From Chloroflexota bacterium (GTDB taxonomy: Bacteria > Chloroflexota > Limnocylindria > QHBO01): a stretch of 64,000 nucleotides of DNA. Each line of letters begins with the position of its first letter. Position 1 is the stretch's first letter. A program made the position numbers and the translations under genes. The notes under the pieces were generated by a model, which made no database searches, was not told the origin of the DNA, and saw nothing but the letters and a program-made list of their open reading frames with translations. Where the stretch lies: contig JBBDXT010000004.1 in NCBI GenBank assembly GCA_040902225.1, positions 702,965-766,964 of the forward strand. The letters run 5' to 3'. Below are positions 6,672 through 11,842 of this stretch, in pieces.

Positions 6672-7262
6672 ATGCCCGGACGCCGGCGGCGACGCATTCC
6701 CGATGCCGAGCGGCCCGCGCCCGACCCGGAGGCCGCGATGGAGATCGCGGTCCGATTCCTCGGTACGCGACCGCGAACGCGATGGGAGCTCGAGCGACGC
6801 CTTCGCCGGGCCACGGCCAGCGATGACGTGATCACCGCCACGCTGGGCCGCCTGGCGGCGATGGGCTACCTGGACGACACCGCCTTTGCGCGCTGGTGGG
6901 CCGAGCAGCGCGACCGCCACGCGCCTCGCGGACGACGGATGCTGGAGGCGGAGCTGCGCCAGCACGGGGTCCCCCGAGAGGTGCTCGAAGCGTTGCGCGG
7001 CTCCGAGGTGGCCGAGCCGGCCCGTGAAGGCGACGCTCTGCCGAGGAGCGAGGCCGAACGGGCGAAAGTGGCGCTCGATCGGCACCTCAAGGGCCGTCCC
7101 ATGCCCGTCGATAAGAAGGCTCGCCAGCGGATCGGCGCCTTCCTGATGCGCCGTGGCTTCGACCCGGAGACAGTGCGCGGCGCACTTCGCGCGGCTGCGG
7201 CCGAAAGTACCCCCGGCGGTAGTACTGCCGAGCCAGATGGCTTGCGGGACGAAGGTCCCTAA
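6672..7262 (+). CDS. recX: Regulatory protein RecX
   Basis: RecX binds the RecA filament and limits its growth. The 196-residue product is all-helical in character with the three-helix repeat motifs RTRWELERRLRR near residue 38, MGYLDDTAFARWW near residue 66 and GAFLMRRGFDPETV near residue 162. It starts with an Arg-rich tail. A 30-residue insert rich in Glu and Pro lies between repeats two and three. The place directly after recA supports the call. Its stop codon lies only about 30 nt before the riboswitch of the next gene, so that leader begins in the recX 3' region. Confidence 0.9.
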   Translation: MPGRRRRRIPDAERPAPDPEAAMEIAVRFLGTRPRTRWELERRLRRATASDDVITATLGRLAAMGYLDDTAFARWWAEQRDRHAPRGRRMLEAELRQHGVPREVLEALRGSEVAEPAREGDALPRSEAERAKVALDRHLKGRPMPVDKKARQRIGAFLMRRGFDPETVRGALRAAAAESTPGGSTAEPDGLRDEGP

Positions 7263-7292
7263 GGTCGCCGCAGGCAACGAGACGCGTTGTCA

Positions 7293-7384
7293 CAGGCGAC
7301 GGCCTGAAAAGGGCAAACCCATCGCGAGATGGGGGCGCAAAGCCAGGGGTCTCGGTCGACAGCCGAGATGGCCCAGCCGCCAGT
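7293..7384 (+). ncRNA. Cyclic-di-GMP-I (GEMM) riboswitch candidate
   Basis: The core reads GGGCAAACC (7311-7319), a 6-bp stem CCCATC/GATGGG capped by a GNRA loop GCGA (7324-7327), then GCGCAAAGCC (7335-7344) and a second hairpin (7350-7355 with 7363-7368). Order and spacing match the GEMM aptamer: GGGCAAACC, P1b stem with GNRA loop, ACGCAAAGCC, and a second arm; only the first base of the last motif differs (G for A). The aptamer ends about 30 nt before the start of a secreted protease gene, and the next gene encodes a GGDEF-EAL protein, which fits c-di-GMP control. Ligand identity (c-di-GMP or a variant dinucleotide) is inferred. Confidence 0.85.
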
Positions 7385-7391
7385 AGCCGCG

Positions 7392-7418
7392 CATCACCCC
7401 ACGAAAGGGGAATTGATG
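7392..7418 (+). promoter_or_regulatory. Expression-platform hairpin over the RBS and start codon
   Basis: CCCC (7397-7400) pairs with GGGG (7407-7410), and flanking CATC (7392-7395) pairs with GATG (7415-7418). The paired GGGG is the ribosome-binding site and GATG includes the subtilase ATG at 7416. This would block translation unless the upstream aptamer changes the fold. Confidence 0.5.
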
Positions 7419-9140
7419 CAGGCACTCAGCGACGTTGGCGTGGGATCGTCCGGTCGACCTGACCGTGGTGACTATCGCGCCCTTGCTATGTCCTCGGCGG
7501 CTGATCGTGGCCTGCTGCAGCGCATCGCGATCCTGTTCGGCGTTTCGTGGGATTTCCACAGGTCACCGCCCACGCCGAGCCCCAGCCTCCTCTCATCCCT
7601 GATGCCACGCCGCCTGGCTGTGGCGCTCGGCAGCCTTGCCGTGCTTGCGTCGGCCGTTGCCCCGGCCACCAGCCTCGCCTCCTCCTACGACCCGACCACC
7701 GACATCAACTCGATGTTCAACACCACCCAGTACACCGGCGCGCAGGCATGGTGGAACGCGGGCTACACCGGCGCCGGGGTCGACGTGGCGGTCATCGACA
7801 CGGGCGTGAGCCCGGTTGACGATCTGTCCGCGCCCGGCAAGGTCATCTACGGTCCCGACCTGTCCTTTGAATCCCAGACCGATGCGCTCAGGAATCTCGA
7901 CACCAACGGCCACGGGACCTTCATGGCCGGCATCATCGCGGGCCGAGGGAGCGGTGCGGTCACGGGCAGCTACGCCGGTGACTCCGCGAACTTCCTGGGC
8001 GTTGCTCCGGACGCGCGCATCCTCTCGGTCAAGGTCGGTGTCGCGGACGGCGGAGTAGACGTCTCCCAGGTCATCGCGGCAGTCGACTGGGTCGTCCAGC
8101 ATCGCACTGACAACGGCATGAACATCCGGGTCCTCAACCTCTCCTACGGGACCGACAGCGTGCAGTCGTACCTGGTCGATCCGCTTGCCTTTGCCGTGGA
8201 GCAGGCCTGGAAGGCCGGCATCTTCGTCGTGACGCCCACCGGCAATGCGGGCTACGCGTTCAAGACCGGCACCCTCGCCAATCCGGCCTCCGACCCGAAG
8301 ATCTTCGCTGTGGGCGCGTCCGACTCGATGGGCACCGCGACCCGGGCGGATGACCTGGTGGCCAGCTTCTCATCGACCGGAAGCAATGGCCGAACGCCCG
8401 ATGTCACGGCCCCGGGAGCGCACCTTGTCAGCCTTCGGGTTCCCGGCTCGTACATCGACGAGGTCTATGGCTCGACAGGCGTCGTTAGCGACACCCTCTT
8501 CCGCGGGAGCGGCACGAGCGAGGCCGCGGCGTTCGTTTCCGGGGCGGCGGCGCTGGCAATCCAGCAACGCCCGACCATCACCCCGAACGCGCTGAAGCGG
8601 CTCTTCCAGCTCAACGCACGAAGCCTGAATGGCTTCTCGAGCCTGAAGCAGGGCGCCGGCGAGATCGATCTCTACAGGATGCTGACCGCGCCGACGTACG
8701 GTGTGCCGGCTCAGTGGAAGACGATCGACTGGTCGACCGGGATCGGTTCGCTCGAGCTTTCGCGCGGGACCGATCACGTCACCCACGACGGCGTCGTCCT
8801 GAGTGGATCGATCGATATCTTCGGGCATCAGTTCGACTCCGCCGCGATGGCCCTCCTCGAGGCGGCTGGCAACAGCTGGAGCGGGGGCGATTGGAACGGC
8901 AACAGCTGGTCCGGAAACTCGTGGTCGGGCAACAGCTGGTCCGCAAACAGCTGGAGCGGGAACTCTTGGTCGGGTAACGCCTGGAGCGGGAACTCCTGGA
9001 GCGGGAACTCCTGGTCTGGCAATTCGTGGTCGGGCAACAGCTGGTCCGGCAACAGCTGGAGCGGGAACTCCTGGTCCGGCAATTCGTGGTCCGGCAACTC
9101 CTGGTCCAGCCACAGCTGGATGGGCGTCTCCTGGCACTGA
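7416..9140 (+). CDS. Secreted S8 family serine peptidase (subtilase) with Trp-rich repeats
   Basis: This 574-residue extracellular subtilisin-like protease has an intact triad: Asp128 in VAVIDTGV, His166 in NGHGTFMAG and Ser368 in GSGTSEAAA. ATG 7416 has the ribosome-binding site AAAGGGG. A hydrophobic signal segment MPRRLAVALGSLAVLAS starts only at residue 63, so either translation begins at ATG 7602 (no visible ribosome-binding site) or the signal peptide has an unusual 62-residue cytoplasmic lead. No separate prodomain is evident. The C-terminus from residue 486 is made of about 17 N-S-W-S-G pentapeptides. The upstream riboswitch suggests control by c-di-GMP. Substrate is unknown. Confidence 0.93.
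   Translation: MQALSDVGVGSSGRPDRGDYRALAMSSAADRGLLQRIAILFGVSWDFHRSPPTPSPSLLSSLMPRRLAVALGSLAVLASAVAPATSLASSYDPTTDINSMFNTTQYTGAQAWWNAGYTGAGVDVAVIDTGVSPVDDLSAPGKVIYGPDLSFESQTDALRNLDTNGHGTFMAGIIAGRGSGAVTGSYAGDSANFLGVAPDARILSVKVGVADGGVDVSQVIAAVDWVVQHRTDNGMNIRVLNLSYGTDSVQSYLVDPLAFAVEQAWKAGIFVVTPTGNAGYAFKTGTLANPASDPKIFAVGASDSMGTATRADDLVASFSSTGSNGRTPDVTAPGAHLVSLRVPGSYIDEVYGSTGVVSDTLFRGSGTSEAAAFVSGAAALAIQQRPTITPNALKRLFQLNARSLNGFSSLKQGAGEIDLYRMLTAPTYGVPAQWKTIDWSTGIGSLELSRGTDHVTHDGVVLSGSIDIFGHQFDSAAMALLEAAGNSWSGGDWNGNSWSGNSWSGNSWSANSWSGNSWSGNAWSGNSWSGNSWSGNSWSGNSWSGNSWSGNSWSGNSWSGNSWSSHSWMGVSWH
8871..9130 (+). repeat. 15-bp tandem repeat encoding NSWSG pentapeptides
   Basis: About 17 near-identical 15-bp units encode Asn-Ser-Trp-Ser-Gly with minor variants (WSGGDWNG, WSANSW, NAWSG). 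Synonymous codons vary between units (AGC or TCC/TCG for Ser, GGC/GGG/GGA for Gly), so the peptide rather than the DNA appears to be selected. Confidence 0.95.
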
Positions 9141-9292: not shown

Positions 9293-11842
9293 ATGCGACC
9301 GCCAGCGAGGGTGTGGACCCTCGTCGCAGCCATGCTCGGCTCGGCACTCGTGGTGTCGGCCCTCGTGCTGCCCCACCTGTCCGCGCTCGACCCGGCCTGG
9401 CAGCTGCCATGGTGGGTGATGGCGCCGGTCTTCTGGGCAGCCGAGGCTCAGGTGATCCACTTCCATTTCCGCCGCGGGGCGCACACCTTCTCCCTCAATG
9501 AACTGCCCCTCGTCGTCGGGTTCTTCCTGGCGAACCCGCTCGAGCTGGTGATCGCCCAGGCGATCGGCTCGGCGGCCGCCCTCGCCATCAACCGGCGCCA
9601 GCCGCCGGTAAAGCTCGCTTTCAACATCGGGTCCTTTGCCCTCTCATCGGTGGTGGGACTTGTGGTCTTCCGCGCGGTTGGAGCGGGTGGCTTGATCGAA
9701 CCGATGCGATGGTTTGCCGCCTTCCTCGCAGTCGGCATCTCGAATCTGGTAGGGGTCATCACCGTCGCCTCCGCCATCTCCATCTCGGAGGGCGTCCTTG
9801 GGGTTCCGAAGCTGCGCCAGATGATCGCGGTATCGTCGGTGGTGGCCATCACCAACACCAGCATCGCCCTGCTGGCGGTCATCATCATCGTCGCCGACTC
9901 GCGGGCGGTCTGGCTTCTGACCCTTCCGGTCGCAACCCTGTTCCTTGGCTATCGCGCCTTCATCGGCGCCAAGCAGCAGCATGAGTCGCTCGAGCTGCTG
10001 TACGAATCGACTCGCATCCTGCAGCGCACGCCCGAACTCGATTCGGCACTCGTCCAGCTGCTCTACCACAGCCGCACCATGTTCCGCGCTGAGCAGGCCG
10101 AGATCGTCCTTTTCCCATCGTCGCCCGGCGACAGCTACCTGATCACCTCGGTGGCCGAGGGACGGACGTCCGTGATGGCCGAGGCATCCGCGACCGCGTG
10201 GAGGCCTGTCCACAAGCACGTCGTGGAACACGGAACGGCATTCCTGCTCAACACGACCTCCATCGAGCTGGACGAGGACCACGAGGTCCGCGACGCGATG
10301 ATCGCGCCGCTCGGCACCGACGGGGGAGTCATCGGCGCGATGGTGATCGCCAACCGACTCGGGGACGTCAGCACCTTTACCGCTGAGGACCTTCGCCTGT
10401 TTGCCACGGTGGCCAACCATGCCGGCACCGCCCTGGAGAACGGGCAGCTCGAGCGCTCGCTGGCCAAGCTCTCCGTCCTGCAGGACGAGCTCAAGCACCA
10501 GGCATTCCACGACGGCCTCACCCAGCTCGCCAACCGCGGCCTCTTCGGAGAGAGCGTCAACGAACGCCTGGTTTCGACGCCACGCGGCAAGCGGTCGGTG
10601 GTGATGTTCGTCGACCTCGACGACTTCAAGTTCGTCAACGACATGTACGGCCATCCGGCCGGGGACGCCATGCTGGTCCAGGTGGCGGCACGGCTGCAGG
10701 CGTGCACGCGCACTTCGGACCTGACTGCCCGCCTGGGCGGCGACGAGTTCGCCATCCTGGTCGACGACGACCCGAGCCTCGCCAATGCGGAGCGGGTCGC
10801 CGGACGCATCGCGCAGATCCTCCAGGAGCCGTTCTCGATCGGCGACATCCAGACGCATGTCTCGGCCAGCATCGGCATCGCGGCCGGCAGCAGGGGCGAT
10901 TCAGCAGAGGACCTGCTGCGGCAGGCGGACGTCGCGATGTACAGCGCGAAGGCCGCGGGGAAGGGCCGCTGGGTCGTCTATAAGCCATCCATGCTCAAGA
11001 CGGTCCGCTCGCGGCATGACGTCGGCGCGGAGCTCCAGCTCGCCGTCGACCGCGGCGAATTCCAGCTTCGCTACCAGCCGGTCGTATCGCTCGAATCCGG
11101 CCGGATCGTCGGTGCTGAGGCACTCGTGCGCTGGAATCACCCCACCCGCGGCGAGGTCGGGCCCGACGAGTTCATCGGCAACGCCGAGGAGAACGCGATG
11201 ATCGTTCCGATCGGCCGCTGGGTGCTGGCCGAGGCATGCCGCGAGGCGGCCGGGTGGAGCCAGCAGGCGGGTGGTGCGGCGCCGTGGGTCGCAGCCAACC
11301 TGTCGGCTCGCCAGCTGCTGCACCCCACCCTGCTCGACGATGTCAGTACCGCGCTCGCGGCGTCTGGCCTTCCACCCTCCAGCCTGATCCTGGAGGTGAC
11401 CGAGACCGTGCTGCTGCATGACGCGGATGCAGCCATCGAGGTCCTCGGCAAGCTCCGTGCCCGTGGCATCCAGATCGCGCTCGACGACTTCGGAACCGGC
11501 TACTCCTCGCTCAGCTACCTCCACCGCTTCCCGATCGACATCCTGAAGATCGCGCAGGGCTTCGTCGATGTCGACGATGCGAAGGACGACCGATGGATCC
11601 TGGCCCAGGCGATCATCTCGCTCGGCAAGGCGCTCGGCCTGCGCGTGATCGCCGAGGGAGTCGAGCGACGCGCGCAGGTCCAGCGTCTCCAGAGCGCCGG
11701 CTGCGAGTTCGGCCAGGGGTTCTTCTTCGCCCGCCCGCTGCACGGGGACCGGCTCGGCGCGGAATTCGCGCGCGACAACGCCCAGCGCCTGGGCTCCGAC
11801 CGGATGGCCCGCTCCATCGCCATCGAGAGCACCGCAGCCTGA
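9293..11842 (+). CDS. Membrane GAF-GGDEF-EAL c-di-GMP turnover protein
   Basis: The 849-residue protein has about seven membrane helices (residues 1-225), a GAF-like domain (about 235-390), a GGDEF domain with intact GGDEF at 482-486 and an EAL domain with EAL at 609-611. An RxxD inhibitory site (RTSD) precedes GGDEF at the usual five-residue distance. The EAL part keeps EVTET, LDDFGTGYSS and AEGVE, so both synthesis and hydrolysis of c-di-GMP look possible. The gene follows the riboswitch-controlled subtilase, suggesting local signalling. ATG 9293 lacks a clear ribosome-binding site, so the start is moderately certain. The membrane sensor family was not identified. Confidence 0.93.
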   Translation: MRPPARVWTLVAAMLGSALVVSALVLPHLSALDPAWQLPWWVMAPVFWAAEAQVIHFHFRRGAHTFSLNELPLVVGFFLANPLELVIAQAIGSAAALAINRRQPPVKLAFNIGSFALSSVVGLVVFRAVGAGGLIEPMRWFAAFLAVGISNLVGVITVASAISISEGVLGVPKLRQMIAVSSVVAITNTSIALLAVIIIVADSRAVWLLTLPVATLFLGYRAFIGAKQQHESLELLYESTRILQRTPELDSALVQLLYHSRTMFRAEQAEIVLFPSSPGDSYLITSVAEGRTSVMAEASATAWRPVHKHVVEHGTAFLLNTTSIELDEDHEVRDAMIAPLGTDGGVIGAMVIANRLGDVSTFTAEDLRLFATVANHAGTALENGQLERSLAKLSVLQDELKHQAFHDGLTQLANRGLFGESVNERLVSTPRGKRSVVMFVDLDDFKFVNDMYGHPAGDAMLVQVAARLQACTRTSDLTARLGGDEFAILVDDDPSLANAERVAGRIAQILQEPFSIGDIQTHVSASIGIAAGSRGDSAEDLLRQADVAMYSAKAAGKGRWVVYKPSMLKTVRSRHDVGAELQLAVDRGEFQLRYQPVVSLESGRIVGAEALVRWNHPTRGEVGPDEFIGNAEENAMIVPIGRWVLAEACREAAGWSQQAGGAAPWVAANLSARQLLHPTLLDDVSTALAASGLPPSSLILEVTETVLLHDADAAIEVLGKLRARGIQIALDDFGTGYSSLSYLHRFPIDILKIAQGFVDVDDAKDDRWILAQAIISLGKALGLRVIAEGVERRAQVQRLQSAGCEFGQGFFFARPLHGDRLGAEFARDNAQRLGSDRMARSIAIESTAA

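Follow-up and report, generated by a model that had tools for sequence, protein, structure and literature searches.

We have found that, in a stretch of 64,000 nucleotides of a Chloroflexota genome (the window), a class I c-di-GMP riboswitch precedes the gene of an exported subtilase. We are inclined to read it as an ON switch of subtilase translation that works by competition between the P1 helix of the aptamer and a hairpin clamping the start codon. The riboswitch class is a known one and the expression platform is uncommon. The sequence and its comparison with relatives show the aptamer, the clamp, the strand that both use and the conserved association with subtilase and GGDEF-EAL genes. 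The competition between P1 and clamp, the predicted ON sign, the leader ORF of the relatives and the conserved association with a c-di-GMP enzyme go beyond the initial annotation of this DNA.

The only above-threshold Rfam match returned by cmscan over the whole window was to the family RF03167 (c-di-GMP-I-GGC), at 7303-7385 of the forward strand (64.5 bits against a gathering score of 59, E 6.1e-13). The initial annotation had recognized the motifs of a GEMM aptamer in their order and proposed a covariance search with the c-di-GMP-I model; the classical RF01051 model also passes for this aptamer, with 58.1 bits over a gathering threshold of 35, and all the motifs are where they had been placed. 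They include the conserved blocks GGGCAAACC (7311-7319) and GCGCAAAGCC (7335-7344) and the P2 hairpin CCCAUC-GCGA-GAUGGG (7318-7333, forward strand), closed in the cmscan alignment by the GNRA tetraloop GCGA (7324-7327). It is the only copy above threshold in the genome. A second candidate (C4:121007-121074) scored 33 bits, below the threshold of 35, and was rejected; its lower half looks degenerate.

The c-di-GMP-I-GGC variant was reportedly defined by Weinberg et al. in 2017, and a variant aptamer of this group could have a ligand other than c-di-GMP. RF03167 outscores RF01051 here (64.5 vs 58.1 bits), and the base beside the equivalent of C92 is G7379 and not A, as in the GGC consensus; of the 71 distinct aptamers of the class, 60 have G at this place and 11 have A. 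However, the other consensus G, at RF03167 model position 37 (a capital in the consensus line), is missing from the window, which has A7339 as do 70/71 class aptamers at that position, and three orthologues of the riboswitch have ordinary c-di-GMP-I as their best Rfam model. From the cmscan alignment, and by numbering against the Vc2 sequence, we take G7313, A7340 and C7380 (all on the forward strand) to be the counterparts of Vc2 G20, A47 and C92. Those are the positions reported to make contact with c-di-GMP in Vc2 (PMC11218506). All three are unchanged in the window and invariant in 71/71 class aptamers. Because the contacts are invariant, position 37 is A nearly throughout and the three orthologues are plain c-di-GMP-I, the GGC label is a matter of score and c-di-GMP is the expected ligand. 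As a GGDEF-EAL gene moreover adjoins in every orthologue, we regard a different ligand as very improbable. In the cGAMP-sensing GEMM variant an A replaces G20. That signature is absent from the window (G7313), and the aptamer sequence gives no reason to favour cGAMP. An A-to-G change that had been marked for inspection in relatives sits at g7335, with G in 2/71 class aptamers; it lies outside the contact positions G20/A47/C92, and we rejected it as the A47 contact.

The regulated gene (7416-9140, forward strand) had been described as that of an exported protease and the following one as making or breaking c-di-GMP, and both descriptions agree with our analysis. The first product is a subtilase (Peptidase_S8, PF00082, 2.6e-38) with the triad motifs D128, H165 and the S of GTS and with C-terminal NSWSG repeats; no other S8 protein was found in the genome. 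The second gene (9293-11842, forward strand), one of 11 GGDEF loci in the genome, codes by Pfam for a GAF-GGDEF-EAL protein in which both the GGDEF and the EAL motif are intact. We found subtilase relatives at E <= 1e-60 in 15/177 genomes of the class, and the aptamer lies upstream in nine of these loci, window included. Upstream of more distant subtilases, mostly from Actinobacteriota, no riboswitch was found above threshold. In 9/9 loci that have riboswitch and full subtilase, the subtilase has a GGDEF-EAL relative beside it. This relative is located downstream of the subtilase in the window, L071 (= L056) and L061, and upstream of the riboswitch in L072, L073, L078, L081, L082 and L084 (longer versions of L057, L058, L059, L060, L062 and L064). 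The link has thus been kept through a change of gene order, which supports c-di-GMP as the ligand. Through both riboswitch and neighbour, exported subtilases with repeats, of an uncharacterised family, are linked to c-di-GMP signalling in a poorly studied class of Chloroflexota. The gene pair also occurs without riboswitch in L075 and L101 (labelled Thermoleophilia and Dehalococcoidia), and is therefore older than the riboswitch or independent of it.

The start codon (AUG, 7416-7418) is enclosed in a hairpin at 7391-7419 of the forward strand, the clamp, formed by GCAUCA 7391-7396 with UGAUGC 7414-7419 and by CCCC 7397-7400 with GGGG 7407-7410, the Shine-Dalgarno region. The initial annotation had already seen a CCCC/GGGG hairpin over the ribosome-binding site and a CATC/GATG pairing of the start codon, and our folding agrees on both, the second corresponding to CAUC 7392-7395 and GAUG 7415-7418. 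At the base of the clamp, GCC 7386-7388 of P1 can pair with GGC 7421-7423 (codons 2-3). For the fragment 7386-7425 the folding energy is -20.7 kcal/mol. Dinucleotide shuffles give -8.7 +/- 2.4, and 0.05% of them fold as low; these shuffles and the control riboswitch loci described below rule out a clamp by chance. A consensus scan of 7100-7500 gave no intrinsic terminator and no sigma-70-like promoter, and transcription termination was rejected since no intrinsic terminator lies near the gene.

The P1 helix reaches beyond the Rfam model. Its 5' strand GCG-a-CGGCCUG (7296-7306, forward strand) pairs with the 3' strand CAG-UA-GCCG-CGC (7381-7392, forward strand) with a duplex energy of -11.8 kcal/mol and pairing-preserving changes in homologues. 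The 3' strand is, from folding and homologues, also the alternative partner of the clamp base, and GC 7391-7392 is common to the extended P1 and to the clamp, where it pairs with GC 7418-7419. Since they have a strand in common, P1 and the complete clamp would be mutually exclusive, so that c-di-GMP is predicted to loosen the clamp by closing P1. Without ligand, the P1 3' strand (7386-7392) would pair with codons 1-3 and lengthen the hairpin, burying both the GGGG and the AUG. A possible anti-P1 hairpin CAGGC-GACG-GCCUG (7293-7306, forward strand, -7.7 kcal/mol) could hold the P1 5' strand in this state; its pairing is also possible in L056, L035 and L061 and is not evident in the more distant family. 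With c-di-GMP bound, P1 (7296-7306 with 7381-7392) would close and withdraw bases from the clamp, weakening it from about -21 to about -8 kcal/mol, and ribosomes could start. We infer that the aptamer binds c-di-GMP, that binding turns the gene on and that its role would be to give more protease at high c-di-GMP, that is, in attached growth.

In the models, the clamp energy goes from -20.7 kcal/mol with the P1 strand free to -14.9 with P1 formed to 7389 and to -8.1 with P1 formed to 7392. The summed helix energies favour the clamp state over the P1 state by roughly 8 kcal/mol, which is of the order that ligand binding could pay in class I riboswitches. With P1 modelled to 7392 the G of the AUG is freed, and as CCCC/GGGG pairs even then, it is the only base of the AUG clearly freed; with P1 to 7389 the core clamp is intact. 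These two results count against the ON switch and would suit an OFF switch, in which the ligand-bound P1 stacks end to end on the core clamp and keeps the start shut, while the ligand-free RNA opens the start codon. P1 and clamp are adjacent, P1 forced to 7389 leaves the core clamp folded (-14.9), and the model of the bound state still has the GGGG paired. Besides, the functional class I switches of C. difficile are OFF (PMC6366702), and the one ahead of the secreted protease PPEP-1 favours PPEP-1 at low c-di-GMP (PMC6447587). Nevertheless, we found no ligand-free structure in which the clamp is open, the homologues fold freely with a closed clamp, and the clamp is strongest whenever the P1 strand is free. 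An OFF switch, which we consider rather unlikely, would also leave the repeated complementarity of the P1 3' strand to codons 2-4 unexplained.

That complementarity, which the ON switch uses, is found throughout the homologues. Besides the nine loci mentioned, L035 makes a tenth, in which the contig ends after riboswitch, clamp and the beginning of the same reading frame, and L193 carries the same platform before a different secreted protein. A similar clamp built on the P1 3' strand appears in 11/11 homologous loci, and removal of the strand costs 6-14 kcal/mol in each. A MAFFT alignment for formal pair counting was dropped; it misplaced the CAUC between lineages, and pairing was therefore judged by folding and by hand. 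At 7386 we found matched triples (P1 partner/base/coding partner), C/G/C in four loci and U/A/U in L057. When the upstream regions and starts were swapped among the homologues, which are few and related, cognate pairs bound better than swapped ones, a modestly significant result by the permutation test (p = 0.027). The evidence for the clamp is weaker in L059, L060 and L062, where it pairs the U and G of the AUG and leaves the A unpaired, and the clamps of L060 and L062 are no more stable than shuffles. L215 (genome G002, same genus) has RecX and the riboswitch intact and lacks the subtilase together with the first two thirds of the GGDEF-EAL gene; an EAL remnant directly follows the aptamer and the clamp is broken, through deletion or misassembly.

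With start codons picked automatically, the AUG was unpaired with a mean probability of 0.09 in the subtilase subgroup; for 56 further riboswitch loci of the class the value was 0.62 (Mann-Whitney p = 9e-7), which makes the start clamp specific to this subgroup among the c-di-GMP-I-type loci of the class. Both this comparison and the preceding one bear on a further explanation, according to which the aptamer senses c-di-GMP and the clamp is a fixed brake, the ligand acting elsewhere, for example on mRNA stability. The clamp core is indeed paired in both modelled states. A fixed brake is, however, hard to reconcile with a clamp base made in all homologues of the aptamer's own P1 strand and with the absence of the clamp from the other riboswitch loci of the class, and no terminator was seen; we think it improbable.

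The start codon that is clamped belongs to different reading frames in different relatives. An ORF of 33-35 codons begins at the clamped AUG in L059, L060, L062 and L064; it is read in a different frame from the subtilase, and its TGA overlaps the subtilase ATG (CGATGA). In L058 the clamped AUG opens a leader ORF of 42 codons with its stop four bases before the subtilase ATG. The leader is fused in frame to the subtilase in the window, L056, L061 and L057, and in the window the first ~40 codons of the subtilase occupy the place of the separate leader ORF of the relatives. By eye, the relatives with a separate leader ORF have no good Shine-Dalgarno before the subtilase start. From the layout of stops and starts we infer that leader ORF and subtilase would be translationally coupled. 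These loci make up a natural series in which a leader ORF controlled by a riboswitch is either separate from its target gene or fused to it. More tentatively than the ON switch itself, we advance the combined reading in which the P1-based clamp of such a switch reaches into codons 2-4, the start codon is that of the protease or of a short leader ORF that hands translation over to the protease through a stop-start overlap, and subtilase and GGDEF-EAL protein form a conserved module. The platform is a compact translational one and can be tested with standard reporters.

Several other observations concern the remaining riboswitches of the class. Behind those that have GTCCAG as their 5' flank, tiny hydrophobic peptides (M/VKANLARF...) are encoded, with an ATG start in L016, L018, L019, L023, L026, L182 and L203 and a GTG start in L017, L032, L037, L045, L046, L048, L052, L180, L187, L190 and others. 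In this group CTTCAT or CTTCAC within the coding region is a potential pairing partner of the start codon. ATG goes with CAT and GTG with CAC in ~23/28 loci (a hand count, uncorrected for relatedness), that is, a second, in-gene type of start hairpin with covariation. In L017-L019, L023, L026, L045 and L046 the first peptide is followed by another small ORF, of ~35 codons and with (E)AG(H/R/Q)RW at its end; here the c-di-GMP regulon of the class contains a pair of small membrane peptides. Tandem c-di-GMP-I-type riboswitches were found in L188 (three), L213 (two) and L051 (two), each followed by a small secreted or membrane protein of its own. The targets in L009, L020, L195, L198, L201 and L212, putative surface proteins, share a recurring N-terminal motif and begin with MSFWNG or MFWDGxRW.

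Among known systems, the riboswitch class itself, class I switches that act on translation and one such switch ahead of an exported protease are already on record. A brief search of the open-licence literature gave no precedent for a start-codon clamp fed by P1, for the leader-ORF series or for the pairing of protease and GGDEF-EAL genes. The window shares with RF01051 (c-di-GMP-I, or GEMM-I, with Vc1 and Vc2 of V. cholerae) the aptamer architecture, the GNRA loop and the equivalents of G20, A47 and C92, and it adds the start-codon clamp, which has the P1 3' strand as its base and extends into codons 2-4. The class I switches of V. cholerae likewise do not act through transcription termination (PMC6366702). 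RF03167 is the best-scoring family for the window, with a G before the C92 equivalent in both, whereas the consensus G of model position 37 is missing from the window and the orthologues fall into RF01051. In C. difficile a class I c-di-GMP riboswitch similarly lies ahead of an exported protease, PPEP-1/Zmp1 (CD2830; PMC6447587); PPEP-1 is a metalloprotease favoured at low c-di-GMP, while the window has an S8 subtilase. The class I switches of that species terminate transcription (PMC6366702), unlike the platform of the window, which would be translational and has no terminator. A parallel in the fate of the start codon is Bc1 (mcpE) of B. thuringiensis, in which SHAPE shows RBS and AUG trapped together in one ligand state (PMC11218506). 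Bc1, however, has a long platform with two terminators and traps the start with ligand, opposite to the sign predicted for the window.
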